DNA of 64,000 bases from the NCBI GenBank assembly GCA_035998445.1, contig DASYHQ010000061.1:186001-250000 (forward strand), in the 5' to 3' direction. The notes beneath the pieces are model-generated. The model was not told where the DNA came from. It saw only the letters and a program-made list of their open reading frames with translations, and ran no database searches. This document shows positions 22,100 to 59,106 of the stretch, in pieces. A program made the position numbers and the translations under genes. Origin of the DNA: Tepidisphaeraceae bacterium. GTDB taxonomy: Bacteria; Planctomycetota; Phycisphaerae; Tepidisphaerales; Tepidisphaeraceae. Position 1 is the first letter of the stretch. Each line of letters starts with the position of its first letter.

Positions 22100-22672
22100 T
22101 TAAGGCGTCGGCAGCACCAGATTCCGGCTCACGTCATCGGGCGAGAAATTCTCCCGTGGCAGCGGCACGATGCGCGCCAAATACCACCCGTTCCCATCCG
22201 TCTGCCATTCGAAGCGCCAGTTTGACGGGTACGGGTAGGGCGCGATCTCCTGTTCACTCAACAGGCTGAGGTCCACCGTGATCAGCGATTGCGTCGGGCG
22301 GGCCTCGAGGTCCAGTATGCGCACCGATTGCAGGCCAATGCGATCGATCGTCTGCTCGGCCCCTTTCGAAAGCTGTTCCTTGCCGCGATAGACCAAAAGC
22401 GACGTCTTGCTGTCCAGCAGCGACGCGAAGGTCGTCCAATCACGATCCTCGACCGACGTGATCAGCAGCCGCGTTCTCCGAACGGCCGTCTCGGTGGGGG
22501 TGTCGACGAAATAGCCGATTGCCATCAGAACGACCGCCAGCAGCACCACGCCCAAGCCGACGTTGCGCAGCGTCGTGTCCTGCTTGCGATTGGCCGACCA
22601 GAACAGGTACGCGCCGACGGCAATGATGCCCAAGGGCAGCCACCACGGGGGATCGAACAGCATGTCGGACAT
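22100..22672 (-). CDS. Membrane protein with NTF2/SnoaL-like domain
   Basis: A 190-residue protein. Two N-terminal helices (about 11-26, LPLGIIAVGAYLFW, and 37-55, VGLGVVLLAVVLMAIGYF) precede a soluble domain that resembles NTF2/SnoaL-like folds: an alpha-helix pair (TAVRRTRLLITSVEDRDWTTFASLLD), then a curved sheet ending WRFEWQTDGNGWYLARIVP. No catalytic residues are obvious. The start at 22672 is an ATG with AAGG upstream. It is divergent from the nonulosonic operon, with 84 bp between the starts. Function unknown. Confidence 0.65.
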   Translation of the reverse strand: MSDMLFDPPWWLPLGIIAVGAYLFWSANRKQDTTLRNVGLGVVLLAVVLMAIGYFVDTPTETAVRRTRLLITSVEDRDWTTFASLLDSKTSLLVYRGKEQLSKGAEQTIDRIGLQSVRILDLEARPTQSLITVDLSLLSEQEIAPYPYPSNWRFEWQTDGNGWYLARIVPLPRENFSPDDVSRNLVLPTP

Positions 22673-22756: not shown

Positions 22757-24694
22757 GTGCCGATGACCGCAATTGCCGATCCCTCATTCGCCCACGTGCT
22801 ACCGGCCGACGCGCCGTACCTGGCGAATCTCGCTGCGCTCTGGGCGACCGATCCCAAGCTCGCCGCTTCCATTGAAGCTGCGGGCGATATCGGTGTGCGC
22901 GTCGACCTCGCGAAGTCGGGCGAACCGACGCTGGCCGTTGAATCTACCACCGGCCAGCGAATCTATCTGCACAGCCGCTACCAACCCCTCGCCGAGGCCA
23001 AACGGCTGGCCGAAGCCGTCGACGTGAACGAACGGCTCGTCTTCTACTGCTACGGTTTCGGGCTTGGCTATCATATCGAGCACCTGTTCGACCGGGCGGG
23101 TGACGACGCGATCCTCTGCATCTTCGAGCCGCGCCTTGCGGTGCTGCGGGCGGCGTTCGAGCAACGCGATTTATCGAAATTGCTGATCAGCCGGCGCTTG
23201 ATGTTCTTCACCACCGGCGACAAGGCCGATTTGTTCACCCGGCTGAACGACCGCATGGCGCTGGTGAACGTGGGCACCGCGGTGCTGGAACACTCGCCGA
23301 GCGTGCAGTCGTCGCCGGATTTCTTCGCAAGCTATCAGCAGTGGGTCGACGAGTTCGCGTCGCTCTGCCGCACAAGCATCACCACGCTGCTGCTAAACGG
23401 CCGGCGGACCGCGGAGAACATCGCGCGCAACCTCGGCTGGTACGCAGCCGTGCCAGGCGTGAACGCGTTGAAGGACCGCTACAAGTGCAAGCCGGCGATC
23501 ATCGTCTCGGCCGGGCCTAGCCTGCGGAAGAACAAGCACCTGCTGCCGCAGGCCGCCGGGCAGGCGGTGCTGATCGCGGCGCAGACGACGCTGAAGCCGC
23601 TGCTGGAGATCGGCGTCGAGCCGAACTTCGTCACGTCGCTCGATTACTCCGATATCTGCACGCGCTTCTTCGAGGGCCTGCCGGACAAGTTGACGACCGA
23701 GCTGGTGGCCGAGCCGAAGGCGACGAACAAGATCTTCCAGATGCATCCCGGCCCAGTATCGCTGCTGGGCAACGACTTCGCCGACAAGCTGCTGCGCGAG
23801 ATGACGCTGGACCGCGCCCGCCTGCCCGCCGGCGCGACCGTGGCGCACCTGGCGTTCTATCTCGCTGAGCATTTGGGGTGCGATCCGATCATCTTCGTCG
23901 GCCAGGACCTGGGCTTCTCCGACGGCCTGTCTTACGTGCCCGGCACCGGTCACGACGACGCCGCCCGCCCCGAATATGGCCGGTTCTACACGCCCGAGAT
24001 GAAGCAGTGGGAACAGATCGTGCGCGACCGCCATATCCTGCGGCGAATCCCCGACGTGCATGGGCGACCGATGTACACCGAGGAACGCCTGTACGCCTAC
24101 CTGCAACAGTTCGAGCGCGACTTCGGTGCCAGCCGATCGCGCGTGATCGATGCGAGCGAAGGCGGCGCGCTGAAGCGCGGCGCGACGGTGATGCCGCTGG
24201 CCGAGGCGCTGCGGGAGTTCTGCACAACGCCGCTCGATGCGATCGCACGCGAGCCCGCGCCACCACAGTGGGACCGGTTGCAGCAGTGCATCGATAGCCT
24301 GAACAACCGCCGCGACGAGGCGAGGCAGATTCAGGAGATCTCGCGCGACACGCTGCCGTTGTTGCGCGAGGTGAAGGACCACTTGGACGACCAGCCGCGC
24401 GTGAACCGCGCGATCGCCGCGATCGACGTGCTGCGGGCGAAGATGAACGGCTTGGGTCACTGCTACGACCTGATCATGCAGATGACGCAGCTGACTGAGA
24501 TGCAGCGATTCCAGGCCGACCTGCGCATCAGTGCGTCGAAGCTGTCCGGCACCGAACGCCAACGGCGGCAGGTCGAGCGCGACATCGACAACTGCTGCGC
24601 CGTGCGCGATGCCGCCGGCGCGTTTCAAGCGATGATGGAGACGATCGTCACCGAACTGACGGCCCAAGGGGCTCACCGAAGCGAGGCCGCATGA
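22757..24694 (+). CDS. Maf/DUF115-family motility-associated glycosyltransferase
   Basis: A 645-residue protein with the DUF115 (6-hydroxymethylpterin pyrophosphokinase MptE-like) core near residues 243-430: KPAIIVSAGPSLRKN, then GVEPNFVTSLDYSD and CDPIIFVGQDLGFSDG. Maf proteins are linked in Campylobacter, Aeromonas and others to transfer of pseudaminic or legionaminic acid onto flagellin. The gene opens a five-gene operon with NeuA-, NeuB- and NeuC-type genes, which supports a role as nonulosonic acid transferase; the acceptor is not encoded here. The start is GTG 22757, or ATG 22763. Its stop overlaps the next start by 4 bp. Confidence 0.85.
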   Translation: MPMTAIADPSFAHVLPADAPYLANLAALWATDPKLAASIEAAGDIGVRVDLAKSGEPTLAVESTTGQRIYLHSRYQPLAEAKRLAEAVDVNERLVFYCYGFGLGYHIEHLFDRAGDDAILCIFEPRLAVLRAAFEQRDLSKLLISRRLMFFTTGDKADLFTRLNDRMALVNVGTAVLEHSPSVQSSPDFFASYQQWVDEFASLCRTSITTLLLNGRRTAENIARNLGWYAAVPGVNALKDRYKCKPAIIVSAGPSLRKNKHLLPQAAGQAVLIAAQTTLKPLLEIGVEPNFVTSLDYSDICTRFFEGLPDKLTTELVAEPKATNKIFQMHPGPVSLLGNDFADKLLREMTLDRARLPAGATVAHLAFYLAEHLGCDPIIFVGQDLGFSDGLSYVPGTGHDDAARPEYGRFYTPEMKQWEQIVRDRHILRRIPDVHGRPMYTEERLYAYLQQFERDFGASRSRVIDASEGGALKRGATVMPLAEALREFCTTPLDAIAREPAPPQWDRLQQCIDSLNNRRDEARQIQEISRDTLPLLREVKDHLDDQPRVNRAIAAIDVLRAKMNGLGHCYDLIMQMTQLTEMQRFQADLRISASKLSGTERQRRQVERDIDNCCAVRDAAGAFQAMMETIVTELTAQGAHRSEAA

Positions 24695-26193
24695 TGCGCG
24701 TCGCCGCCATCCTATCCATGCTGCACGAGCCGGCCGACGCCAACAGCGCCACCCGGCTGTTGCGCAACGCGCCGGTGTTGCAGTGGACGATCGACCGCCT
24801 GCGCAAGGCGAACGGTGTCGCGGGCATCGGCATCCTCTGCTGGGATGATCAACTGGCAGCCACCCGAATGTTCGCCGACCCCGGCACCGTCACCGTGCTT
24901 CCCAAGGGCGTTCGGCGGGCGATCCCGGAACTGGACCGCATCACCGTCGCCCGCACGTGGTCCGACGGTTGGCGCGGTGGGCTGCACAGCACGTGCGCGT
25001 TCGACGCCGGCTTCTACGCTCCATGGATCGTTGAATTGGCTGACTTGCTGAAAGCGGACGCCGTGCTGCTGGCGCCACCGAGCGCCGCTATGGTCGATCC
25101 ACAGATTGCCGGTGCGCTGATCGAGCGTGCAACGTGCAACACGTCACTTGGCATCACGTTCTCCGCGGCGGCCCCGGGGCTGGGTGGGGCGGTGGTGACG
25201 CGGGCGCTGTTGAACACGCTGGTAACGCACGGGTCGCATCCTGGCCGGTTGCTGCACTACATGCCCGAACAGCCAATGCTGGACCCCGTGGGCGGCGAGG
25301 GGTGCGTGAGCGTGCCCGCAAGCGTCTCACGGACGCGCGAGAGCTTTTTAATCGACAGCGATCGCCGCGCCCGCCGCTTCACAGCGGCGGCCCATCCGCT
25401 GAATGGGCAGTTGATGACGACCGGGGCCGAAGAGCTCGCGCGACGGTTGTCTGCAGAACCGGCCGACGACGCGCCACCACGCGATGTGACGATCGAACTG
25501 AACACGACCCGATCGACGACGCCGATCTACCTGCCCGTGCGTGACGCGAGCGACGCCGGCGCAACGCTCGACCTGCGCGCGGTCTTCGGCCTGTTGAACG
25601 ACCTGAAGCACACCGACGACATCCGCCTGACGATCGGCGGGCGTGGCGATCCGCTCGATAGCCCGATCCTGTTCGACGTGGTCGCAGCGGCGCGGGCGGC
25701 GAAGGTGGCGTCGATCCATGTCGAGACGGATCTGGCTACGTTCGACGCGAAGCAGATCGTGCAACTGGCCAGCAGCGAGGTCGACATCGTCAGCCTGTTC
25801 CTGCCCGCGCTGTCGCCCGACACGTACGCCACGGTGATGGGCACCGATGCGATGAAGCGTGTGCTGGACAACCTGAAGACGTTCGTCACCGTTCGCGCCG
25901 CGCGCGGCCGTGGCACGCCGCTGGTGGTGCCGACGTTCGTGAAGCTGGCAGCGAACCTGGCCGAGATGGACGCGTGGTACGACCAGTGGCTATCCGCTCT
26001 CGGCGTCGCCGTCATTGTGGGGCCGCGGGCGCTCGGCGCGGCACGACTGGAACTGGCCGACATGTCGCCCGCCATGGGTCGCAATGCCGCCGATCGGCCA
26101 CTGCGCTTGTACCTGCGCTGCGACGGTAGCACGACGACGTGCGACGCGGATGTGATCGCACTTTCACCTCCTCTGGAGACGCAACTCGTATGA
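24691..26193 (+). CDS. SpsF-like nucleotidyltransferase fused to a degenerate radical-SAM/SPASM-like domain
   Basis: A 500-residue protein. The N-terminal ~230 residues resemble the GT-A-like fold of SpsF-type cytidylyltransferases but lack a clear nucleotide-binding signature. The rest aligns by pattern with radical SAM proteins: a strand-turn (VTIELNTTRSTTPIYLPV, 266-283) where CX3CX2C should be, IRLTIGGRGDPLDSP, FVKLAANLAEMDAWYDQW, and a SPASM-like LRCDGSTTTCDAD end (C477, C484). The three cluster cysteines are missing, so it should not make a radical. ATGA overlaps join it to both neighbours, implying tight co-expression with the sugar pathway. Function unknown, perhaps a binding or scaffolding protein. 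Confidence 0.65.
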   Translation: MMRVAAILSMLHEPADANSATRLLRNAPVLQWTIDRLRKANGVAGIGILCWDDQLAATRMFADPGTVTVLPKGVRRAIPELDRITVARTWSDGWRGGLHSTCAFDAGFYAPWIVELADLLKADAVLLAPPSAAMVDPQIAGALIERATCNTSLGITFSAAAPGLGGAVVTRALLNTLVTHGSHPGRLLHYMPEQPMLDPVGGEGCVSVPASVSRTRESFLIDSDRRARRFTAAAHPLNGQLMTTGAEELARRLSAEPADDAPPRDVTIELNTTRSTTPIYLPVRDASDAGATLDLRAVFGLLNDLKHTDDIRLTIGGRGDPLDSPILFDVVAAARAAKVASIHVETDLATFDAKQIVQLASSEVDIVSLFLPALSPDTYATVMGTDAMKRVLDNLKTFVTVRAARGRGTPLVVPTFVKLAANLAEMDAWYDQWLSALGVAVIVGPRALGAARLELADMSPAMGRNAADRPLRLYLRCDGSTTTCDADVIALSPPLETQLV

Positions 26194-26915
26194 ACACGCT
26201 CGGCGTCATCCTCGCGCGGGCCGGCAGTGTCGGCCTGCCGAGCAAGCACCTGCTGCCGCTGCTCGGCCGGCCGGTGATCTCGTACACGTTCGCCCACGCC
26301 CAGGCGGCGTTGTGGCTCACGCACGTCGTGCTCTCGACCGATTGCGCGCAGTTGCGCGGCATGGCCCAGGCCGTCGGCATTGATACCGTCGTCCGGCCGG
26401 CTCACCTGGCGACGTCGGACGCGTCGGTGCAGGACGCGATGCTGCACGCGATGGACGAGATCGAGTCGACCAGCGACTTCCACGCCGACGCGCTCGTCGT
26501 CCTGTACGGCAACGTGCCCGTGCGCACCGAAGGCGTGATTGACCGCGCGATCGAGATGCTGGAGCGCACCGGCTGCGATTCCGTCCGCACGTTCTGCCCG
26601 GTGGGCAAGTGGCATCCCGCGTGGATGTCGAAATTGTCCGACGATGGCATCGTCGAGGCATTGCACCCCGGCAGCATCCACCGCCGCCAAGACCTGCAAC
26701 CGCTGCTGCTGCACGATGGTGGCGCGGTGGTGGTATCGCGCGAGTCGATGTTGCGCGGCCGTGCGATGCCGAACGATCCGCACGCCTTCTTCGGCGTCGA
26801 CCGCCGGGGCGTTCGCACCGAGCAGGGCGACGTGATCGAGGTCGACCACCAGCGCGACCTATACTGGGCCGAGGCGGTACTGCGCGACCAGCAGGCGATG
26901 CGGAAGGCGTCGTAG
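26190..26915 (+). CDS. CMP-nonulosonate (sialic/legionaminic-type) cytidylyltransferase
   Basis: A 241-residue NeuA/PseF/LegF-like enzyme, which activates a nonulosonic acid with CTP to give the CMP-sugar. The nucleotide-binding start MNTLGVILARAGSVGLPSKH matches the family pattern (usually ARxGSKGxxxKN), followed by PLLGRPVISYTF and the core VVLYGNVPVRTEGVIDRAI. Ser-Val replaces the usual Ser-Lys in the signature, which may affect CTP binding. The open frame begins at 26139, but the ATG at 26190 overlaps the previous stop and has ctggag upstream, which fixes the start. It lies 59 bp before the NeuB-type gene. Confidence 0.8.
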   Translation: MNTLGVILARAGSVGLPSKHLLPLLGRPVISYTFAHAQAALWLTHVVLSTDCAQLRGMAQAVGIDTVVRPAHLATSDASVQDAMLHAMDEIESTSDFHADALVVLYGNVPVRTEGVIDRAIEMLERTGCDSVRTFCPVGKWHPAWMSKLSDDGIVEALHPGSIHRRQDLQPLLLHDGGAVVVSRESMLRGRAMPNDPHAFFGVDRRGVRTEQGDVIEVDHQRDLYWAEAVLRDQQAMRKAS

Positions 26916-26974
26916 CGGTCGGCGAGTTTCGCTTGGGTCTGGCTTGACGAACGAATCGAAGTTTCGGAACAACC

Positions 26975-28015
26975 ATGCAAATCGCAGATCGACAAATCGG
27001 GATCGAGCACCGCACCTTCGTCATCGCCGAGATTGGTGTGAACCATAACGGGTCGGTCCGCCGGGCACTGGAACTGGTGGACCTGGCCGCGGCGGCGGGG
27101 GCGGATGCGGTGAAGCTGCAGCTGTTCTCGGCCGACCGGTTGATGAACGACGCCGCCCAGTTCGCGTCGTATCAAAAGTCGCGCGTCGACGCGGCGTCAC
27201 CAGCGGCCATGCTGCGGCAGTACGAGCTGACGACGCTCGACACGCTGCGCGTCGTCGACGCGATCCGCAACCGTGGGCTGGTGCCGATCGCCACGCCGTT
27301 CTCGTTGGACGACGTGGACGCGGTCGTCTCGTTGAACCTGCCGGCGATCAAGATCGCTTCGCCCGACCTCGTGAACCGCCCGCTGCTGTCGCGCGCCGCT
27401 GAGACGGGCCTGCCGATGCTGGTCTCCACCGGCGCCGCGACCATGGGCGAGGTGTCGATCGCGACGGAATGGCTGACCGACCTGCAGGCGACGTTCGCGC
27501 TGCTGCACTGCGTCAGCAGTTACCCCACGACGCTGGCCGACGCGAATTTGCGATGGATCGGCGAGCTGGCGCGGTTCGGCTGCACGGTGGGGTATTCGGA
27601 TCACACGACTGAACCGCTCGCCGGCGCGCTGGCGGTGGCGAGCGGGGCGAGCATTGTGGAAAAGCACCTCACCTACGACCGCGGCGCCGCGGGGCCCGAT
27701 CACGCGGCCAGCGCCGACCCGGTCGGCTTCGCGCAGTACGTGAACGCCATTCGTTTGGCAGACACGGTGCGCGGCGCCGCGGGCAAGCGCGTGCTGGACT
27801 GCGAGCAGGACGTGCGAAAGGTCAGCCGGCAAAGCCTGGTGATCGCCCGCGCACTGCGCGCCGGTGAACGCGTGGGCGCAACCGATTTGATCGTGCAACG
27901 GCCCGGCGTGGGCATCCCCGCGGCGCAGTGGCCGATCGCGATCGGCAAGACCGTCCGCCGCGACGTGCCCGCGGGCACGATGCTGTCGTGGGAGATGCTC
28001 AGCGACGCGGCGTGA
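26975..28015 (+). CDS. neuB: N-acetylneuraminate/legionaminate synthase (NeuB family)
   Basis: A 346-residue NeuB-family synthase that condenses phosphoenolpyruvate with an N-acetylmannosamine-type sugar to form a nine-carbon nonulosonic acid. The barrel begins FVIAEIGVNHNGS with the conserved NHNG motif, then DAVKLQLF (usually KFQxF), IKIASPDL and CVSSYPT; EKHLTYDR is also present. A C-terminal SAF (antifreeze-like) domain covers about 285-346 with RPGVGIPA. Whether the product is sialic, legionaminic or a related acid cannot be told from sequence. The start ATG 26975 follows gaacaacc. It is fourth in the operon. Confidence 0.88.
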   Translation: MQIADRQIGIEHRTFVIAEIGVNHNGSVRRALELVDLAAAAGADAVKLQLFSADRLMNDAAQFASYQKSRVDAASPAAMLRQYELTTLDTLRVVDAIRNRGLVPIATPFSLDDVDAVVSLNLPAIKIASPDLVNRPLLSRAAETGLPMLVSTGAATMGEVSIATEWLTDLQATFALLHCVSSYPTTLADANLRWIGELARFGCTVGYSDHTTEPLAGALAVASGASIVEKHLTYDRGAAGPDHAASADPVGFAQYVNAIRLADTVRGAAGKRVLDCEQDVRKVSRQSLVIARALRAGERVGATDLIVQRPGVGIPAAQWPIAIGKTVRRDVPAGTMLSWEMLSDAA

Positions 28016-28049
28016 TCTAAAGTGCGAAGTCGGAAAGTGAAAGGCGGAA

Positions 28050-29204
28050 GTGAAAGCGACGGCTCGCAAGCGCATCTGTTTCGTCACCGGCACGCGGGCC
28101 GAGTACGGATTGATGCGCTCCACGCTCGCGGTCATCGCGCAGCATCCAAGTCTAGAACTGCAGCTCGTCGCTACCGGCATGCACCTGCATCGGCGGTACG
28201 GACGAACGATCGATGAGATCCGGCGCGACGGGTGGACGGTCGACGCGACCGTGCCGTGGCCATTGGATGCTGACACGCCCGCGGCCGTCGCGGCCCGCAC
28301 GGGCGCCGCGATGGCGAAGCTGGCGGCGACGTACGAGCGGTTGCAGACCGACGTCGTCCTCGTTGTCGGTGATCGCGTCGAGGCCTTCGCGGCGGCGGCG
28401 GCAGGGCAGGTGTCGCAGCGGGTGGTCGCCCATGTCCATGGTGGCGATCGGGCCGCGGGGCAGATCGACGACGCACTCCGCCATGCCATCACCAAACTCG
28501 CCCACGTCCACTTCCCCGCTACGCCTGCCAGTGCGGCACGCATCGTGAAGCTGGGTGAAGATCCTCGGCGGATCCATCGCGTCGGCGCGCCGGGCATCGA
28601 TGGCATTGCGACCGCTGCGGCGCCGATGGCGGTGTTGCGCGAGCGCTTCCCCGGTTTGCGCGAGGGGCAGTTCGCGCTAATCGTGCTGCACCCGACCGAC
28701 GCCACGGGCGAGACCGAGTCATCGCGCGCAAGTACGGTGTTGCGCGCCTCGCGGGCCGCCGGCATCGAGCAGGTCGTGGTGATCTACCCCAACAGCGACC
28801 CCGGTTCGCAGCCGATCATCCGTTGCTGGGAAGCGCGGCAGGCCGAGATCGACTTCCTGCTGCCCGACGCCCCGCGGGACGTGTTTCTCGGACTGATGCG
28901 CCGCTGCGCCGTGATGGTCGGCAACAGCAGCGCCGGCATCATCGAGGCCGGCGCCCTCGGGACACCCGTCGTCAACGTCGGCGACCGTCAGGCCGGTCGC
29001 GAGCGCGGGGCGAACGTGGCGGACGTCGGGTTCCGTGCCAGCGAGATCACGCTGGCGGTGCGAAGTGCGCTATCCATCGACCGAACAGGCAGGCCCGATA
29101 AAACGCATCCGTATGGTGGCGGGCGGGCGGGGGTTCGCATCGCGGCAGCGCTGGATCGCTTGATGATCAACAACCGGTTGCTGCGGAAGCTGATCGCGTA
29201 CTAG
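28050..29204 (+). CDS. neuC: UDP-GlcNAc 2-epimerase, hydrolysing (NeuC/LegG type)
   Basis: A 384-residue member of the UDP-N-acetylglucosamine 2-epimerase family. The N-terminus ICFVTGTRAEYGLMRSTL is the NeuC-type signature (GTRAEYG), followed by VVGDRVEAFAAA, HVHGGDRAAGQIDDALRHAI and the C-terminal substrate loop MVGNSSAGIIEAG. The family splits UDP from a GlcNAc-type sugar with inversion at C2, supplying the mannosamine substrate for NeuB, so the order NeuA-NeuB-NeuC gives a consistent pathway. LegB/LegC/LegH-type genes for legionaminic acid are absent from the window. The start is a GTG at 28050, weakly supported. Confidence 0.82.
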   Translation: MKATARKRICFVTGTRAEYGLMRSTLAVIAQHPSLELQLVATGMHLHRRYGRTIDEIRRDGWTVDATVPWPLDADTPAAVAARTGAAMAKLAATYERLQTDVVLVVGDRVEAFAAAAAGQVSQRVVAHVHGGDRAAGQIDDALRHAITKLAHVHFPATPASAARIVKLGEDPRRIHRVGAPGIDGIATAAAPMAVLRERFPGLREGQFALIVLHPTDATGETESSRASTVLRASRAAGIEQVVVIYPNSDPGSQPIIRCWEARQAEIDFLLPDAPRDVFLGLMRRCAVMVGNSSAGIIEAGALGTPVVNVGDRQAGRERGANVADVGFRASEITLAVRSALSIDRTGRPDKTHPYGGGRAGVRIAAALDRLMINNRLLRKLIAY

Positions 29205-29341: not shown

Positions 29342-30214
29342 ATGGGAACCACACCGCTGCCTGAATCGCAAAGCATTGTGTCCGACGCCGTGCGCAAGGT
29401 GACGATGCTCGCGACGTTGCCCGAGGTGACCTCGCGCATCATCCGCACCGTGGAGGACCCCAAGAGCACCGCCAGCGCGCTGCACAAGATCGTGTCGCAC
29501 GACCCGGCGCTGGTCACCCGCATCCTGAAGGTCGTCAACAGTTCGTTCTACGGGTTGCCCGGGCAGATCGGCAGCATCGAGCGCGCGATCGTGCTGCTGG
29601 GGCTGAACGCGGTGAAGAATATCGCCGTCGCCGCCAGCCTCGGACAGATGTTCCGCGGCGCGACACTCTGCGAGGGATACACGGCCAAGGACCTGTGGAC
29701 GCACTGCGTCGCGGTCGCCGTCACGTCGCGCGAGTTGGCCAAGCAGATGAAGGTCTCCCTGGCCGACGAGGCGTTCCTGGCCGGCATGATTCACGACGTG
29801 GGCCTGCTGGTGTCGCTTCAACTGTGGCCCGAGAAGCTGCGCAACATCTGCGACGCGTCGCGCACCGGCCAGCAGCCGTTCTGCGAGATCGAGCGCGCGA
29901 TGGTCGGCGTCGACCACCAGCAGCTGGGCATGGGCCTGGCCGAGCAGTGGAAGTTCCCGCGGTCGTGCCAGCTGGTGGCGGGCTTCCACCATCAACCGCA
30001 GGTGCTGTCGGACGACAGCCGGACGCTGGTGACGATCGTCCACGTCGCCGACACGATCTGCTGCGGCACGGCGCACGGCTTCCCGCTGACGGCCGCCCAT
30101 CAAACGCTCGACGCGCGCCTGCTGGCCGATGCGCACATCACGCCCGCAATCGTGGAAAGCGTGAAGGCCAGGCACGAGGAAATCCTTCAGGCCGCCGAGG
30201 CTTCGCTGGGGTGA
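29342..30214 (+). CDS. HDOD-domain signalling protein
   Basis: A 290-residue protein, essentially a single HDOD domain (about 25-225), an HD-related output or scaffold domain common in bacterial signalling and motility control. The pattern LPEVTSRIIRTVEDPKST, then HDPALVTRILKVVNSSFYGLP and FLAGMIHDVGLL, is diagnostic; the HD pair is kept as IHD, but the distal metal ligands of true HD-GYP proteins are not obvious. No GGDEF or receiver domain is attached. It stands 137 bp after the nonulosonic operon, preceded by gaaggatc, and ends just before the giant palindrome at 30223. Confidence 0.85.
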   Translation: MGTTPLPESQSIVSDAVRKVTMLATLPEVTSRIIRTVEDPKSTASALHKIVSHDPALVTRILKVVNSSFYGLPGQIGSIERAIVLLGLNAVKNIAVAASLGQMFRGATLCEGYTAKDLWTHCVAVAVTSRELAKQMKVSLADEAFLAGMIHDVGLLVSLQLWPEKLRNICDASRTGQQPFCEIERAMVGVDHQQLGMGLAEQWKFPRSCQLVAGFHHQPQVLSDDSRTLVTIVHVADTICCGTAHGFPLTAAHQTLDARLLADAHITPAIVESVKARHEEILQAAEASLG

Positions 30215-52281: not shown

Positions 52282-53457
52282 CTACTTCACCCCCGCGACG
52301 GCCGCGCCGTACGAGCGGCCACGCCAGGTGGACGACCGGCCCATCACGCGGCGAGACAGCGCGTACCACTGGATCGCCAGCAGCACGACGATCGACACCG
52401 GGTGCAGCATAGCCCCAAGCCGCGACTGCCGAAACCGCGCCGCTCCGGCCAGTCGTACCGCGTAGCTCAAGAGCACCGCGATGCCGGCGCAGATGAGTAC
52501 CACCATCCGGTAAGGTATCGCCGGCGCGAGCGCGGCGTACGCGAACCAAATCATTGGCAGCACCTGTCCAAGCGTCAGCATGATCGTCCACGGCACGATC
52601 GCCGCGGGCGCGGCCATGCCTTCGGTCGCGTTCTTCGCCAAGCCGTGCCATGTCTCGCCGTTCGACTGGTACATGCGGCAAGTGGCCGTGTCGGTCGCGT
52701 CGAACAAATCGGTGCGATCTCCAGCGTTGCGGAACGCGCGCGGCAGCGTCACGCCGTCGTGCAGCGACGCGCGGATCGCGGCGTGGCCACCGGCGCGGTC
52801 GTAGGCGTCTCGCCGCGCGATGAAGAACTGTCCGCAGCCCGCGCCGTACGCGGGTGAAGTGGACATGCGCATTCGCCGGATCGGCAAAAAGCCCAGCAGC
52901 ACGAAGTGGATGAGCGGGATCAGCATGCGCTCCAGCATCGTGCCGGTCTGTTGCCGTGGAAAGCCACTCACGAGCGGCGCGTCGGCCGCGACGGCGAACG
53001 CGATGGCCCGGCGGACCGCGTCGGGCGACAGGCGCACGTCGGCATCGATGAAGGCCAACCACTGGCCACGGGCCCGCATCGAAAGCACGTGACACGCGTG
53101 CTGCTTGCCGCACCAGCCGACCGGCAGCGGTGGGGCGGCCTCAAGGCGCAGCCGTGCGTCGCCCGCGGCGATGTCGCGCACGATGTCCGCGGTGCGATCG
53201 GTCGAACCGTCGTCCAGCACGATCACCTCCAGCTCACGGCCGTCGCCCGCATCATTGGCAAGCACGGCCCGCACGCAGTCGCCGATGCTCGCCTCTTCAT
53301 TCCTTGCAGGGATGAGGACGGACACCACGCCTTCGCTGCCTACCCCAGCAGCGGCGTTGGGTTGTGGCGCGGTGCGGAACTGCCGCAGATTGTCGAAGAA
53401 CAGCCCGGCCGACAGGATCGACAGCAGCAGACCGACGATGGCCAACACCAATAGCAT
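52282..53457 (-). CDS. Membrane glycosyltransferase family 2 (CrtQ-like)
   Basis: A 391-residue GT2 enzyme starting MLLVLAIVGLLLSILSAGLF, one N-terminal helix. The catalytic domain has VSVLIPARNEEASIG, DDGST and DADVRL (the DXD metal site); GGHAAIRASLHDG and QSNGETWHG are typical of the CrtQ/HpnB-like group. Three or four C-terminal helices follow. In S. aureus CrtQ glucosylates diaponeurosporenoate. Here it is the eighth gene of the carotenoid block, joined to the acyltransferase gene by an ATGA overlap, which fixes the ATG at 53457 (the frame is open to 53529). The sugar donor is not predictable. Confidence 0.82.
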   Translation of the reverse strand: MLLVLAIVGLLLSILSAGLFFDNLRQFRTAPQPNAAAGVGSEGVVSVLIPARNEEASIGDCVRAVLANDAGDGRELEVIVLDDGSTDRTADIVRDIAAGDARLRLEAAPPLPVGWCGKQHACHVLSMRARGQWLAFIDADVRLSPDAVRRAIAFAVAADAPLVSGFPRQQTGTMLERMLIPLIHFVLLGFLPIRRMRMSTSPAYGAGCGQFFIARRDAYDRAGGHAAIRASLHDGVTLPRAFRNAGDRTDLFDATDTATCRMYQSNGETWHGLAKNATEGMAAPAAIVPWTIMLTLGQVLPMIWFAYAALAPAIPYRMVVLICAGIAVLLSYAVRLAGAARFRQSRLGAMLHPVSIVVLLAIQWYALSRRVMGRSSTWRGRSYGAAVAGVK

Positions 53458-54272
53458 CACGCGTGTACGTCCTCCATGTGGGCGGCCGAGAAGCGCCGAC
53501 CGGTCGCTTTGGCCTTCATCCATCGCCACGCGTCGTACGTCGCGCTGCTGCCGGCCGAGCCGCGCAGGATGACGTCGAACCGGCCAGCATCCTTCGCGAT
53601 CGCGTCGGCTGCCAGCCCGTCCATCGTGGTCGCCAGCGCGTCGTCAATCGCGAGGTCGCCGGCATGCAGATCGCATGGCGGACCGAATCGCACGAGCGCC
53701 TCGGGCTCCCGTTCCGTCCAGAACGGATACTCGATCGCCAGCGGCAGCACGACCGCTTGCTCACATCGCTCGGCGAGCCTTGCCAGACCGGCGGCCAGTT
53801 CGACGGGTCGCTGGCGCGGGTCGGCGAAACGGCCCTGCGCGGTGATCCACAGGCACGTGTTCGGGGACGCCGCGACGCGCGAGGCGGTCTTGAAGAACGC
53901 AGCGCCACCGGCCCGCGACGCGCGGTCGATCCCGAAGAAACCGAGCTTGCGGAAGAAGCGATACTTCTCCAGCATCGCCGCGTCGATCGGCGCGTAATGT
54001 CGACGGCCCGGCCACAGGTGTTGCGACAGCACCAGCGCCATCAGCGGGTCCCACCAGCCCGGGTGATTCATACAGAGGATGATCGGTGTGGCCGCATCGA
54101 TCGTCGGCGGGTAGCCATCGCGCGCGATGCGAACCGTATGAAAGTGCTTACGCGCAAACCGCCGCGTGTACCAGTGGAACAGCCGAAACAATGGGCGGTT
54201 GATCGTCGGCAGCGCGTGCTCGCGGTCGCGCGTGGTCGCGATAGGTGGCGAAGATATGAGCTGATCTGGCAT
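53457..54272 (-). CDS. Lysophospholipid-type acyltransferase of the carotenoid cluster
   Basis: A 271-residue member of the PlsC-like superfamily. The HX4D motif is NHPGWWD (H70 to D75), ITAQGRFADPR replaces the usual FPEG region, and LPLAIEYPFWTER lies downstream. It differs in sequence from S. aureus CrtO, which is a membrane protein, but could take the same step, fatty acylation of the glycosyl carotenoid; that is inference from position. Similar acyltransferases accompany bacterial carotenoid glycoside genes. It overlaps the glycosyltransferase gene by one base frame (ATGA). A family-2 repeat separates it from the desaturase gene upstream. Confidence 0.75.
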   Translation of the reverse strand: MPDQLISSPPIATTRDREHALPTINRPLFRLFHWYTRRFARKHFHTVRIARDGYPPTIDAATPIILCMNHPGWWDPLMALVLSQHLWPGRRHYAPIDAAMLEKYRFFRKLGFFGIDRASRAGGAAFFKTASRVAASPNTCLWITAQGRFADPRQRPVELAAGLARLAERCEQAVVLPLAIEYPFWTEREPEALVRFGPPCDLHAGDLAIDDALATTMDGLAADAIAKDAGRFDVILRGSAGSSATYDAWRWMKAKATGRRFSAAHMEDVHA

Positions 54273-54288
54273 GGACGGAAGGGCGCTC

Positions 54289-54410
54289 TGGTCCCTCTCC
54301 CGGTAATCCGGGAGAGGTTAGGTGAGGGTGATTTCGAACTGCTGACGAATCTCGAAAGAACGAATCACCCCCACCCAGCCTCCCCCGGAGCATGCGGGAG
54401 AGGGGCAGGA
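54289..54410. repeat. Family-2 palindromic element, copy 4, inside the carotenoid block
   Basis: ggtccctctcccggtaatcc with gggagaggttaggtgagggt; right half gaatcacccccacccagcct with cccccggagcatgcgggaga. It lies between the desaturase stop (54421) and the acyltransferase start (54272). An mRNA crossing it would form a long hairpin. Confidence 0.78.
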
Positions 54411-54420
54411 AAGGATCGAC

Positions 54421-55992
54421 TTACACCGGTGCCAGCGCCGCCTCGCGCGTGTCAGGCGAGGCCGTACTGCCACGCCGATCCTGATCCAGCGAATCGCCCG
54501 CGATCCAGCCGCTCATCAGCACCATCGGCATGCCGGGTCCGGGGTGCGCCGCGCCACCGGCGACGTACAGCCCCGCGATGTCCTTACGACGATTGGCGGG
54601 TTTAAACGCGCCCAGGAACTTGCCGTGAGACGCAAGGCCGTAGATAGCGCCGTTCAGCACGCGGTAGCGGTCGTGGATGTCCTGCGGCGTCAGCGTGCGC
54701 TCGACGACGATGCGGTCCTCAATGTCCGTCAGGCCGGCGGTGCGCTTCAGCTTGTCCAGGATGACGCGGCGATAGTCGGGCAGCATCTTCCTCCAATCCT
54801 GGCCCGGCCGCAGGTAGGGCGTATGGACGAGCACGTACAGCGCCTCGCCACCGGCGGGCGCCACGCCCGGTTCCGTGCCGGCCGGTGCGGCCAGGTAGCA
54901 CGTGGGATCAGGCGCCGGTTCGCCGCGTCGATAGATGTAGTCGAACTCCTCGTGCGGGTCGCGCGAGAAGACGAAGTCGTGGTGCAGCAAATGGTCGTAA
55001 CGCTGCTTCAGGCCGAGGTAGAGCACCACGCCACTGCAGGCGGGCTCGAACGAGCCGCGCGACTTCTCGAACTTCTGCGCGTCGCGACCGCCGATCAACT
55101 CGCGGTAGGTGCGCACGGCGTCCATGTTCGACACGACCGCGCTCGCCGGCAGCCGGCGGCCATCCTTCAGCGTCACGCCGGCCACGCCGTTGCCGTCGTG
55201 TTCGATGCGGGCCGCTTCAGCACTGGTGATCACGTTTACGCCGAGTTCACGCGCCAGCTTCGCCAGCGCCGCCGGCACGGCGCCGGTGCCGCCCATGGGG
55301 TACCACACACCGTCGTTCGTCTGCATGTGCGCGATGCCGCACAGCACCGCCGGCGAGGCCTCGGGGCTGCTGCCGACGTACTGCGTGAAGTGGTCCAGCA
55401 TCTGCGACACGCGGCCGTCACCGATGTACGAGCGAATGGTGCCCGCGACGCTGCGGCCCATGCCCATCGCCATCACGTCCGACAGCGTGCCCAGGTTAAA
55501 GCTGGCCTTGGGGTCCATCATGTCACGAATGCCACCGATGGATTTCCAGAAGTAGAAGCGTTCGCTGATGTCGTGCAGGCGGTGCGAGTGGTTGATGAAC
55601 TTCTCGTAGCGCTCGACGTCGCGCGGGTCGGTCGAGAACGCCGCCAGCGTCTGCTTCATCTTGGCAACGTCGGCGCAAAGGTCGAGCGTCGAGCCGTCGT
55701 CGAAGAAGCAGCGCCACTGCGGGTCGAGCGCCACCAGATCGAGGTAGTCCTCCATGCGCCGGCCGGCCTCGGCGAAGATGCGCTTCAGCACGCGCGGCAC
55801 GGTGAGGATGGTGGGACCCATGTCGAAGCGGTAACCGTCCTGCTCCCACACCGCCGCCTTGCCGCCCAGCCAGTCGTTGGCCTCCAGAATGGTGACGGCA
55901 TGCCCGCGGGCCGCCAGCGTGCATGCGGCAGCCAAGCCACCCAGGCCGGCGCCGATAACGATGACAGTGTTGTCGCTAGTGGTGCTATTCAT
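54421..55992 (-). CDS. Phytoene desaturase-like FAD oxidoreductase (CrtN/CrtP/CrtI family), second copy
   Basis: A 523-residue CrtI-type flavoenzyme. The ADP-binding motif is VIGAGLGGLAAACTLAARG at about 12-30, followed by LEANDWLGGKAAVWEQDGY and FDMGPTILTVP; a C-terminal AGGAAHPGPGMPMVLMSGW is diagnostic. The family desaturates or oxidises linear carotenoids; with the other copy at 57541 one enzyme may desaturate dehydrosqualene/squalene (CrtN role) and the other oxidise the product terminus (CrtP role). The division cannot be settled by reading. The ATG at 55992 overlaps the stop of the aldehyde dehydrogenase gene (ATGA), so translation is coupled. Confidence 0.85.
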   Translation of the reverse strand: MNSTTSDNTVIVIGAGLGGLAAACTLAARGHAVTILEANDWLGGKAAVWEQDGYRFDMGPTILTVPRVLKRIFAEAGRRMEDYLDLVALDPQWRCFFDDGSTLDLCADVAKMKQTLAAFSTDPRDVERYEKFINHSHRLHDISERFYFWKSIGGIRDMMDPKASFNLGTLSDVMAMGMGRSVAGTIRSYIGDGRVSQMLDHFTQYVGSSPEASPAVLCGIAHMQTNDGVWYPMGGTGAVPAALAKLARELGVNVITSAEAARIEHDGNGVAGVTLKDGRRLPASAVVSNMDAVRTYRELIGGRDAQKFEKSRGSFEPACSGVVLYLGLKQRYDHLLHHDFVFSRDPHEEFDYIYRRGEPAPDPTCYLAAPAGTEPGVAPAGGEALYVLVHTPYLRPGQDWRKMLPDYRRVILDKLKRTAGLTDIEDRIVVERTLTPQDIHDRYRVLNGAIYGLASHGKFLGAFKPANRRKDIAGLYVAGGAAHPGPGMPMVLMSGWIAGDSLDQDRRGSTASPDTREAALAPV

Positions 55993-57473
55993 GTGGGTGA
56001 ACCTTTTCCTCGTGTCGCAAGCGTCTTCATCAATTGTAGCGCCGCCCGCACGCGCCCGCCGACCGATCGGCCATGGGCGGCGTGCAAGTAGGCCGCGAAC
56101 ATCGTCGCGTCGCTCTCGTGCGGCTTATCGTAGTGCGGGCGAAACGTGCCACTGCGGCTGGCGACGGCCTTGGGGCGCGTCATGGCGAGCAGGCCGTCGG
56201 CGCCGCGCGTCACGCCGAACCCACTGTGCCCGCGGCCACCGAACGGCAGGCGCGGGTCGGCGGTGGGGGCGATGCAATCGTTGATCACAACGCAGCCCGC
56301 GTTCACGCGCTGCGCCAGCGCGGTCGCAGCGTCGGCTGGGCCGAAGATCGTCGCGCCCAATGCGAACTTGCATTGGGCCGCCAGCGACAGCGCCTCATCG
56401 ACCGATGCCACCGGCACGACCGCCAGCAGCGGCGCAAAGGCTTCGTCACGCAGCACGCGCGCGCCATGAGGCACGTCGGTCAGCAAGATCGGCGATAGCG
56501 TGCTCGCGTCTTCCGTAGGCACATTGCCAGCCAGCAGGCGACCGCCGAGTTCGATCGCGTTCGATGCGAGTGAACGTGCCCGCCGTATGCTCGGTGGCGA
56601 TGCGCGGAACGTCGGCAAATCGCGCAACGCATCACTTAGCGATGCATTCAGCGCCGACAGCATGTCGGCGGGCACGAACACGCGCCGCGGCGCGATGCAG
56701 GTCGCGCTGTTGTTGAACGTCAGCCCGAACCGCAGCGCCCGGCTCGCCAACTCCAGGTTGGCGCCGGGCAAGATGAAGACGGCGTCGTGTCCCGACAGTT
56801 CCAGCGTGGCCGGCACCACATGTTCGGCCGCCTCGGCAAGCACGGCGTGACCGGCGGTGAACGAGCCGGTGAAGACGACGTGATCGACCTGGCCGATCGC
56901 GTCGCGCGCGGCCTGAACATCTGAAGCTAGAACGGTGAGTAAGCCTGCCGGCAGCCCCGCGGTCGTCGCGATCTGTGCAAGCAGATCGACCGCCTGCTCG
57001 CAGCCCGGAGCCGGCTTTACCAGCACCGCGTTGCCCGCAGCGATCGCCTGCAGCGCGTGCGCGACTGGCAGGAACAGCGGATAGTTTGACGGGCCGATCA
57101 CCAGTACCACGCCAAGCGGTTCGCGGTAAATCGTTAGGTCAGATCCCGGCAACCACGCCGGCCGGCCTGCGCGCCCGAGGCGCTGCGGGCGCAACAGGCG
57201 AGTTAGGTTGCGCTCGAGAAAGCGAATGCCGTCCAGCACGGGCAGCACCTCGGCCGCCAGCGAATCGGCAACGCGCCGTTGCGTGATCGTCGATAATGCT
57301 GCCGCGATCTCGTCGGCACGATCTACGACCGCGTGGCGAAGCTGTCGGAAGATCACGACGCGGCGTTTCAGCGGCACGCGTGCCCACGCCGCGCCGGCTG
57401 CTCTGGCGCGCGCGATCGTCCCAACGTCACTGGTGACGTCAGCGTCGCGAGGTTGTTCGGCAAGCATCGTCAT
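55989..57473 (-). CDS. Aldehyde dehydrogenase (carotenoid aldehyde to acid)
   Basis: A 494-residue NAD(P)-dependent aldehyde dehydrogenase. The catalytic Cys is in NNSATCIAPRRVFV and the general-base Glu in TLELSGHDAVF; the cofactor loop VFTGSFTAGHAV resembles FTGS(T/P)xxG. In staphyloxanthin and related C30 pathways an AldH/CrtNc enzyme oxidises the terminal aldehyde to carboxylate, and its position between two desaturase genes supports that role. It is shorter than many ALDHs at the N-terminus. The start is ATG 57473 (57467 also possible); the frame to 57527 would include the hairpin. The hairpin 57484-57521 lies directly before it. Confidence 0.87.
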   Translation of the reverse strand: MTMLAEQPRDADVTSDVGTIARARAAGAAWARVPLKRRVVIFRQLRHAVVDRADEIAAALSTITQRRVADSLAAEVLPVLDGIRFLERNLTRLLRPQRLGRAGRPAWLPGSDLTIYREPLGVVLVIGPSNYPLFLPVAHALQAIAAGNAVLVKPAPGCEQAVDLLAQIATTAGLPAGLLTVLASDVQAARDAIGQVDHVVFTGSFTAGHAVLAEAAEHVVPATLELSGHDAVFILPGANLELASRALRFGLTFNNSATCIAPRRVFVPADMLSALNASLSDALRDLPTFRASPPSIRRARSLASNAIELGGRLLAGNVPTEDASTLSPILLTDVPHGARVLRDEAFAPLLAVVPVASVDEALSLAAQCKFALGATIFGPADAATALAQRVNAGCVVINDCIAPTADPRLPFGGRGHSGFGVTRGADGLLAMTRPKAVASRSGTFRPHYDKPHESDATMFAAYLHAAHGRSVGGRVRAALQLMKTLATRGKGSPT

Positions 57474-57483
57474 CGGTCGCGAT

Positions 57484-57521
57484 CCGGTCCCTCTCCCATG
57501 AGTACATGGGAGAGGGACCGG
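57484..57521. repeat. Perfect 17-bp hairpin within the carotenoid block
   Basis: Arms 57484-57500 (ccggtccctctcccatg) and 57505-57521 are exact complements with loop agta. Lies between the desaturase stop (57541) and the aldehyde dehydrogenase start (57473). Related to the half copy at 559-596. It has no T-tract and sits just upstream of a start codon. Confidence 0.85.
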
Positions 57522-57540
57522 AAACACCTTCTATAAAAAC

Positions 57541-59106
57541 TTACTGTGAACCTGTCGCGGTCGCTTTCCCACGGGTCGCGTACTTCGCTGCCTGGCCGGT
57601 CTGGCCCGGCCAGTGGTACGGGATCTTCTGATCGTCCAGCAACAGCCCGCTGCTGATTCGGGCCGATTCGAAGATCACCGGCAGCCCGCTACCCGGATGC
57701 GTACCACCGCCCACGAGGTAGACGTTAGCCAGATCTTCAAATCGATTGTGCGGCCGGCGGTGCAGCATCTGGCCGAGGTTGTGCGCCAGGTTGAACGTGG
57801 CGCCGCGGTACAGCTGGTAGTCGTTCACCCAGTCTGCGGGCGTCAGCACCTTCTCGTACCGAATGCGGTCGCGCACGTTATGGATGCCGATGCGCTCCAT
57901 CTGTGTGAACGCCAGTTCGCGGAACGCGGGCGTCTCCTTGTGCCAGTCGATCGTGCCGACGTCGTTCGACACCGGCAGCAGGCAGTAGAGCGCGCTGTGG
58001 CCCGCCGGCGCTAGCGATGGGTCGGTCCGGCAGGCATTCTGCACGTAGAACGAGGGGTTGCACGACAGGCAGTGGCGTTCCTCGATGTCGCGCAGATTCT
58101 CCTCGTAATCCTTCGCCAGCCAGATCGTGTGATGTTCGAGATCGGGAAAGGTGCCTTCGACCCCGAGGTACATCATGAACGTGCTGCACGAGAACCGCTT
58201 GCCGCCGATGGCCTTGTCCTTCCAACGCTTGCGGATGCCGTCGGGCACGAGCTTGGTCATCGTGTTGGCAAAGTCGGCATTGATGACGGCGGCGTCGCAG
58301 TCGTAGGTTGCGCTGGACGTGGTGACGCTGCGAACGCGGCGCTGTTCGTCGAACGATAAGGACGTCACGGCCTCGTTCAGGCGGATGTCGACGCCCATCG
58401 ATTCCGCGACGCGCGCCATGGCCGCGGTGACGGCGTTGCAGCCACCGATCGGGTGCCACACGCCGTACTCGTACTCCAGGAACGACAGAATCGTGAACAG
58501 GCTGGGGCACTGGAAGGGGCTCATGCCCAGGTATTTGCTTTGGAAACTGAACGCGAGGCGCGTGCGCGCATCGTGGAAGTACTTGCACAGATCGGTGTGT
58601 ACGCTGTCCAGCGGGCGCAGGTGCAACGCCGACTTCATCACCGATGGCCGCAGCAAATCCAGTGGGCTGGCGAAAGGCGATTCCAGAATGGCGCGGAACG
58701 CGGATAGCTTCTTGCGGTTGTCGGCGAGGAACTTGGGAAAGGCGGCGGCGTCGCGCGGGTCGATCGCCTTCAACATCTCGCGCATCTGCGCGACATTGTG
58801 GGACGCCTTCAGTTCACCACCGGCCTCGAAGACCAGGTGATACTGCGGGTCGAGGCGCACCAGCTGCACCTCATCGTGCAAATTGCGGCCGCAGGCGGTG
58901 AAGACCTCTTCGAGGACGCGCGGATAGAGGAAGAACGTCGGCCCGACGTCGAACGTGTAGCCGGCCTCGGTGATGCTGCTGGTGCGGCCCCCGACGCGGT
59001 CGCGGCGTTCCAGCACCGTGACGTCGCACCCACTGGCCGCCAGCAGCATCGCCGAGGCGAGCCCGCCGGGTCCGGCGCCGATAATGATCACGCGACGACG
59101 ACTCAT
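57541..59106 (-). CDS. Phytoene desaturase-like FAD oxidoreductase (CrtN/CrtP/CrtI family), first copy
   Basis: A 521-residue CrtI-type flavoenzyme starting MSRRRVIIIGAGPGGLASAM (GXGXXG). Further family marks are LERRDRVGGRTSSITEAGY, FDVGPTFFLYP, and the C-terminal VGGGTHPGSGLPVIFESAR. It is the first gene after hpnE, so it most simply acts on squalene or hydroxysqualene-derived C30 backbone, like a CrtN, but it could be CrtP-like. The ATG at 59106 overlaps the hpnE stop (ATGA); the frame open to 59178 is not needed. Its C-terminus (GQAAKYATRGKATATGSQ) is basic. Confidence 0.86.
   Translation of the reverse strand: MSRRRVIIIGAGPGGLASAMLLAASGCDVTVLERRDRVGGRTSSITEAGYTFDVGPTFFLYPRVLEEVFTACGRNLHDEVQLVRLDPQYHLVFEAGGELKASHNVAQMREMLKAIDPRDAAAFPKFLADNRKKLSAFRAILESPFASPLDLLRPSVMKSALHLRPLDSVHTDLCKYFHDARTRLAFSFQSKYLGMSPFQCPSLFTILSFLEYEYGVWHPIGGCNAVTAAMARVAESMGVDIRLNEAVTSLSFDEQRRVRSVTTSSATYDCDAAVINADFANTMTKLVPDGIRKRWKDKAIGGKRFSCSTFMMYLGVEGTFPDLEHHTIWLAKDYEENLRDIEERHCLSCNPSFYVQNACRTDPSLAPAGHSALYCLLPVSNDVGTIDWHKETPAFRELAFTQMERIGIHNVRDRIRYEKVLTPADWVNDYQLYRGATFNLAHNLGQMLHRRPHNRFEDLANVYLVGGGTHPGSGLPVIFESARISSGLLLDDQKIPYHWPGQTGQAAKYATRGKATATGSQ

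Follow-up and report, generated by a model that had tools for sequence, protein, structure and literature searches.

Most described cases of flagellin glycosylation come from Proteobacteria and Firmicutes, and the closest described systems to the one considered here are built around Maf-type protein glycosyltransferases. In Aeromonas, Maf1 is reported to bind flagellin and to work on it in the cytoplasm, ahead of the chaperone (PMC4065374); the Maf of Clostridium botulinum (CbMaf) is reported to be able to use N-acetylneuraminic acid (Neu5Ac), activated with cytidine monophosphate (CMP), in E. coli (PMC11339370). We analysed a stretch of 64,000 nucleotides (hereafter the window; contig DASYHQ010000061.1, positions 186,001 to 250,000, assembly GCA_035998445.1) from a Tepidisphaeraceae bacterium, a planctomycete of the class Phycisphaerae whose genome comprises 5.84 Mb in 64 contigs and is 95.5% complete. 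Positions 22757-29204 of the window hold a one-direction nonulosonic acid (NulO) operon whose first gene encodes a Maf-type protein glycosyltransferase, a reading that is supported by the evidence given below. We consider it a real and conserved NulO glycosylation module, which most likely serves flagellin and whose novelty within Maf systems lies in its second gene (gene 2). No title on planctomycete flagellin glycosylation was found in the literature searched, which comprised papers outside subscription.

The operon consists of five open reading frames (ORFs), all on the + strand. The first (22757-24694, GTG start, 645 amino acids) encodes the Maf protein, which matches the MptE-like/DUF115 family PF01973 with 126.2 bits (cut-off 34.6) and is the sole match to this family in the genome (E <= 0.001); its N-terminal domain is weakly matched by PF20157 (E 0.004, 17.1 bits, under the cut-off of 23.5). 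It is followed by gene 2 (24691-26193, ATG start, 500 amino acids), which we propose to be a pseudoenzyme partner of Maf on the basis of its predicted fold, motif tests and its adjacency or fusion to Maf. The third gene (26190-26915, 241 amino acids) encodes a NeuA-type CMP-NulO synthetase (PF02348, 54 bits, E 2e-14); its best start is the ATG at 26190 (the mechanically called ORF opens at 26139) and its nearest solved relatives are the CMP-Neu5Ac synthetases 6ifd and 1eyr. Next come a NeuB-type NulO synthase with a SAF domain (26975-28015, ATG start, 346 amino acids; PF03102, 226 bits; PF08666, 48 bits) and a NeuC-type hydrolysing uridine diphosphate (UDP)-sugar 2-epimerase (28050-29204, GTG start, 384 amino acids). 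NeuC exceeds the NCBIfam cut-off of TIGR03568 (352 versus 235.9 bits); NeuB reaches the general family PF03102 and stays under the cut-off of the Neu5Ac-synthase equivalog TIGR03569 (307.5 versus 399.65 bits). ATGA overlaps join Maf to gene 2 (24691-24694) and gene 2 to NeuA (26190-26193), with gaps of 59 bp between NeuA and NeuB and of 34 bp between NeuB and NeuC. A preliminary description of this locus, made from the letters alone, had proposed five same-strand genes, the first three with 4-bp overlaps, and had named Maf, a CMP-sugar synthetase, NeuB and NeuC; the ORFs and the sequence agree with this arrangement and order, and the family scans with these identities. Among 37 loci of relatives (L043-L079), those of the window's family repeat this gene order from Maf through gene 2, NeuA and NeuB to NeuC, which places the operon far beyond chance. 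Variant residues in NeuA and NeuC were not taken as signs of decay, since relatives share them: in the window's family the NeuA rows mostly read EVD or EID at a position that is DID in others, and NeuC mostly has HGGD.

Gene 2 had previously been called a fusion protein. This description needs correcting: the protein is nucleotidyltransferase-like plus radical S-adenosylmethionine (SAM)-like, both catalytic signatures are gone, and it is a constant partner of Maf. In the AlphaFold model (46 rows; predicted local distance difference test score (pLDDT) 90.3, predicted template modelling score (pTM) 0.90; poor at residues 448-452, 456-467 and 486-500), residues ~1-240 adopt a cytidylyltransferase fold and residues ~260-490 a radical-SAM barrel. 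Among the structures listed, the closest solved fold to residues 1-267 is the Leptospira cytidylyltransferase 6oew (Z 19.7, root-mean-square deviation (rmsd) 2.9, 216 aligned), which is also a weak profile match (E 8e-4); IspD proteins were matched as well. The C-terminal domain resembles the radical-SAM enzymes SuiB (5v1s, Z 18.1), viperin and MoaA, with Z of about 16-18. The form GS-x-R/G-L-P-x-K, which we take to be the nucleotidyltransferase signature, was tested on the N-terminal domain and occurs in 0/46 gene-2 rows, versus 22/24 NeuA rows searched with the same pattern. CxxxCxxC is likewise absent anywhere in the 46 rows, 36 of which have no cysteine at all at residues 258-300. In a profile search, the SPASM part gave matches to BtrN and to an anaerobic sulfatase-maturating enzyme, and the cysteine region of BtrN aligns to a cysteine-free stretch of the gene-2 profile. 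All four SPASM cysteines are retained in 43/46 rows and lost in the window protein, L105 and L111; the window protein keeps one of the four and gives no PF13186 match. On this evidence from sequence and modelled structure, gene 2 is an undescribed second protein predicted to combine two enzyme folds without their catalytic signatures.

The best NCBIfam match of gene 2 is TIGR04321, the spiro-SPASM family, which occurs in spirochaetes. With 53.8 bits, under the 250-bit cut-off, gene 2 is not a member, and the same family is the best match for 5/6 scanned relatives, the highest of which (149.8 bits) is also under the cut-off. A search for a spirochaete counterpart by a single scan of genome contigs, which leaves spirochaete chromosomes uncovered, gave records with planctomycete or unclassified titles and one titled Alphaproteobacteria; a plasmid search gave 15 records with partial radical-SAM matches only. 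The Alphaproteobacteria title belongs to a bin in which one contig carries a Maf/gene-2 pair (L150), possibly mis-binned planctomycete DNA. The term 'spiro-SPASM' was not found in the literature searched, and no paper among the matches listed contained both 'flagellin glycosylation' and 'radical SAM'.

Gene 2 travels with Maf. Of 67 named loci, 57 have Maf upstream of gene 2, 5 have the two fused and 5 show no Maf; three of the last (L109, L122 and L123) start inside gene 2 at a contig edge. Among the 37 loci of relatives, Maf and gene 2 were recognised within one ORF of 1182-1269 amino acids in L073-L077; L078 and L079 have ORFs of a similar type (1179 and 1188 amino acids) in which the gene-2 match to the window protein is weak or absent. 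Neu genes occur at 23/67 named loci (17 with NeuABC, 5 with NeuAB and 1 with NeuA). The remaining 44 have none nearby: at 41, Maf and gene 2 stand together, and 3 are also without Maf; contig ends cut some named loci, so that these absences are upper bounds. Of the 298 Phycisphaerae genomes that form our class sample, 156 have gene 2, 156 PF01973, 227 Flagellin_N and 261 NeuB, the last count taking in weak matches. Both gene 2 and Maf are present in 149, neither in 135, gene 2 only in 7 and Maf only in 7; G119, for one, had no gene 2 in the single-sequence search and has a match by the profile. The profile was also run on 392 genomes of the phylum, most of which gave generic radical-SAM/SPASM matches. 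Outside the class, in a comparison covering gene 2 and Maf, the 19 genomes that match gene 2 best (E <= 1e-53) all have a strong Maf, on the same contig in 10; among 61 hand-picked other genomes, strong Maf was found in 4 and weak Maf in 4.

A fused relative (L165, 1094 amino acids) was modelled with pLDDT 89.9 and pTM 0.86, a high pTM that may reflect a defined arrangement of Maf and gene 2. Its Maf module (model residues 30-675), standing in for the window Maf in the comparison with solved Maf folds, resembles Magnetospirillum Maf 5mu5 (Z 24.6, rmsd 6.9, 531 aligned). A single-sequence search of the window Maf against solved structures gave chance-level matches to I-CreI and a weak match to 5mu5, nothing more.

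Gene 2 could instead be catalytically active in the sugar pathway, modifying NulO or CMP-NulO through its own conserved residues, in which case Maf would need no partner. Both domains do carry conserved residues and motifs (W90, WRGG 94-97, D105, D136, PGL 162-164 and GxGDPL 317-322), the SPASM cysteines that most rows keep would be needless for a pure scaffold, and gene 2 adjoins NeuA both here and at the loci of many relatives. We nevertheless regard this as unlikely, given the 41/67 loci at which Maf and gene 2 stand with no Neu gene nearby, the fusions, which involve Maf and no Neu gene, and the absence of both catalytic signatures, joined in the window protein by loss of SPASM cysteines. 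Because both signatures are lost, and because gene 2 is more closely associated with Maf than with the Neu genes and fuses with Maf, we favour a docking subunit.

The preliminary description noted that no flagellar genes lie nearby, hinted at a non-flagellar system and left the acceptor unknown. A Pfam scan of 23 other proteins of the window, a portion of its ORFs, indeed detected no flagellar family. The hint fared less well. The genome holds four Flagellin_N proteins, all outside the window: three flagellins of ~467-476 amino acids, for which the same description had suggested looking, are encoded on contig 22 (two) and contig 45 (one), and there is a 636-amino-acid FlgL-like protein adjoining a 567-amino-acid ORF that we read as a candidate FlgK. 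Maf also tracks flagellin across the class, flagellin being present in 154/156 Maf carriers versus 73/142 non-carriers (both in 154 genomes, Maf only in 2, flagellin only in 73 and neither in 69). Since relatedness inflates class-wide contrasts, they were also read within families. In the window's family (f1) Maf is present in 20/23 flagellated and 0/3 non-flagellated members; in family f5 it is present in 3/4 flagellated members and 0/24 others (28 members listed). Strong NeuB (E <= 1e-50) was found in 151/156 Maf carriers versus 26/142 others. A flagellin ORF of at least 470 amino acids is present in 57/61 Maf carriers versus 2/59 non-carriers, a count that takes in the best-scoring 120 of the 227 flagellin genomes. 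The flagellins and FlgL of the genome, together with the co-occurrence of Maf and flagellin across the class, therefore suggest that the most likely acceptor is flagellin.

Alternatively, the sugar may be attached to the envelope or to a surface protein other than flagellin, and the link to flagellin may reflect nothing more than shared ancestry. This would fit the scan of window proteins, which showed no flagellar family, and the distribution of flagellated genomes with and without Maf, which belong mostly to different families. It is hard to reconcile with f1 and f5, in which no listed non-flagellated member has Maf, and with the way flagellin length follows Maf, and we consider it improbable.

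As to the sugar, NeuC, NeuB and NeuA suffice on paper to convert UDP-N-acetylglucosamine (UDP-GlcNAc) to CMP-Neu5Ac, so that the operon contains a complete Neu5Ac gene set. A sialic- or legionaminic-type sugar had been proposed, and the presence of LegB/LegC or PseB/PseC genes had been named as a point to settle. The NulO gene set stands, and the legionaminic side is the less favoured: among the genome proteins tested, none of these enzymes was found above its family cut-off. For LegB (TIGR04180), 0/23 matches exceed it. The two strongest of seven DegT proteins score 260 and 187 bits for LegC (TIGR04181, cut-off 420) and 333 and 228.5 bits for PseC (TIGR03588, cut-off 423.5), and the strongest Polysacc_synt_2 dehydratase scores 173.5 bits for PseB (TIGR03589, cut-off 407.75). 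Naming the sugar directly from the NeuB and NeuC sequences was attempted and dropped, as the scores fail to separate Neu5Ac from legionaminic acid (Leg) enzymes. From the complete Neu5Ac set and the lack of Leg or pseudaminic acid (Pse) upstream enzymes over their cut-offs, we lean slightly towards Neu5Ac or a close relative rather than legionaminic acid.

The other reading of the donor, which differs from ours in the identity of the sugar only, is that other regions of the genome encode upstream enzymes for a legionaminic or pseudaminic acid. Pse or Leg is the usual sugar of known Maf systems, the nearest solved relatives of NeuC are labelled UDP-N,N'-diacetylbacillosamine 2-epimerases, and the two strong DegT aminotransferases (one of them the protein with 333 bits to PseC and 260 to LegC) and the Polysacc_synt_2 dehydratase could act in such a route. 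All these candidates score under the cut-offs, though, and no upstream candidate was located in the operon. A Leg or Pse donor accordingly seems the somewhat less probable choice, if a serious one.

Taken as a whole, the operon is probably a flagellin O-glycosylation module with gene 2 as the partner of Maf. NeuC would convert a UDP-N-acetylhexosamine, most simply UDP-GlcNAc to N-acetylmannosamine; NeuB would condense its product with phosphoenolpyruvate to a nonulosonic acid, most simply Neu5Ac; and NeuA would make the CMP-activated donor. Maf would then transfer the sugar in the cytoplasm to serine or threonine residues of the flagellins encoded elsewhere, prior to their export. Gene 2 would be an obligate, non-radical partner of Maf, its docking part binding Maf plus either the CMP-NulO donor or flagellin. 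More tentatively, and with rather more doubt than we attach to the module itself, the planctomycete Maf may be a two-component protein glycosyltransferase, in which a catalytic Maf is paired with a conserved pseudoenzyme (a dead cytidylyltransferase joined to a dead radical-SAM/SPASM barrel) that receives CMP-NulO or flagellin.

Several observations weigh against this proposal. In the class sample, gene 2 occurs without a Maf match in seven genomes and Maf without a gene-2 match in another seven, although several of these are weak, fragmentary or incomplete-genome cases, and one genome (G121, locus L111) keeps an open gene 2 yet has neither flagellin nor Maf. As to flagellin, the 73 flagellated genomes without Maf manage without it, most of them sitting in separate families, and the P value of ~1e-24 for the Maf/flagellin contingency overstates independence because the genomes are related. 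Two genomes of family f21 (G102 and G155) carry Maf and no flagellin; NeuB is absent from them as well and their Maf matches are weak, and they look like remnants. Finally, CbMaf is reported to be active in E. coli without a gene-2 partner (PMC11339370); a partner is therefore not generally needed.

Two neighbouring genes are conserved. Immediately downstream lies an HDOD-domain protein (29342-30214, + strand; PF08668, 194 bits), which is found on the same strand at 15/23 Neu-bearing named loci versus 0/44 without Neu genes, and so goes with the form of the cluster that has Neu genes. Upstream, a small divergent protein is encoded on the - strand (22100-22672); its homologues occur on the opposite strand in 11/67 named loci, and related ORFs in 17 other loci.

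Variants of NulO loci were also seen. In Sedimentisphaerales relatives, a B12-binding radical-SAM-type gene lies between NeuA and NeuB (L113, 8111-9637; L117, 4384-5838) or is fused to NeuB (L112, 5821-8367, 849 amino acids; L124, 10238-12826, 863 amino acids). L112 and L117 were scanned for domains (in the L112 fusion: radical SAM 78 bits, B12-binding 65 bits, NeuB 278 bits), and L113 and L124 were judged by their similar starts. With this gene, the nonulosonic acid may undergo a cobalamin-radical modification. A second NulO cluster of the genome, on contig 16 (L042, 8200-15056), encodes a Glyco_trans_1_2 protein, a methyltransferase, a fusion of NeuA to a KdsC-like phosphatase (392 amino acids) and a NeuB of 553 amino acids, whose tail matches MptE-like PF01973 (E 3e-6, under the family cut-off); it may represent a sugar-phosphate route with its own transferase. 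NeuA and NeuB share a single ORF of 582 amino acids in a Phycisphaeraceae record (L151, 8439-10184). Elsewhere in the window, positions 52285-59178 encode, in one direction, a GT2 protein, an acyltransferase, two amine-oxidase-type desaturase-like proteins and an aldehyde dehydrogenase, which together resemble a C30 carotenoid glycosyl-ester cluster.

Conservation of the module across Phycisphaerae, with the partner nearly always beside or fused to Maf, would extend flagellin glycosylation to a little-studied phylum. Gene 2 also suggests, in concrete terms, how Maf could locate its acceptor or donor, and it gives radical-SAM-like proteins without their cluster a role that can be tested. Should the two-component Maf prove true, related spiro-SPASM proteins would suggest that flagellated bacteria of other phyla have a comparable partner.

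How far does the system resemble those already described? For gene 2, TIGR04321 is the best family match, under the cut-off, and 6oew, the nearest listed fold for its first 267 residues, is a single chain of 250 amino acids from Leptospira borgpetersenii with 12% identity. Caulobacter FlmG is, like the proposed module, a cytoplasmic NulO transferase acting on flagellin, and a separate N-terminal part of it is reported to bind flagellin and confer specificity (PMC7591256). FlmG is described there as a class apart from Maf. The window system shares with Aeromonas caviae Maf1, CbMaf and Magnetospirillum Maf 5mu5 the MptE-like central domain, the NulO genes alongside and the association with flagellin, and its relative L165 shares the overall fold of the solved Maf 5mu5. 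It departs from all three because of gene 2, a constant second protein that in some lineages is fused to Maf.

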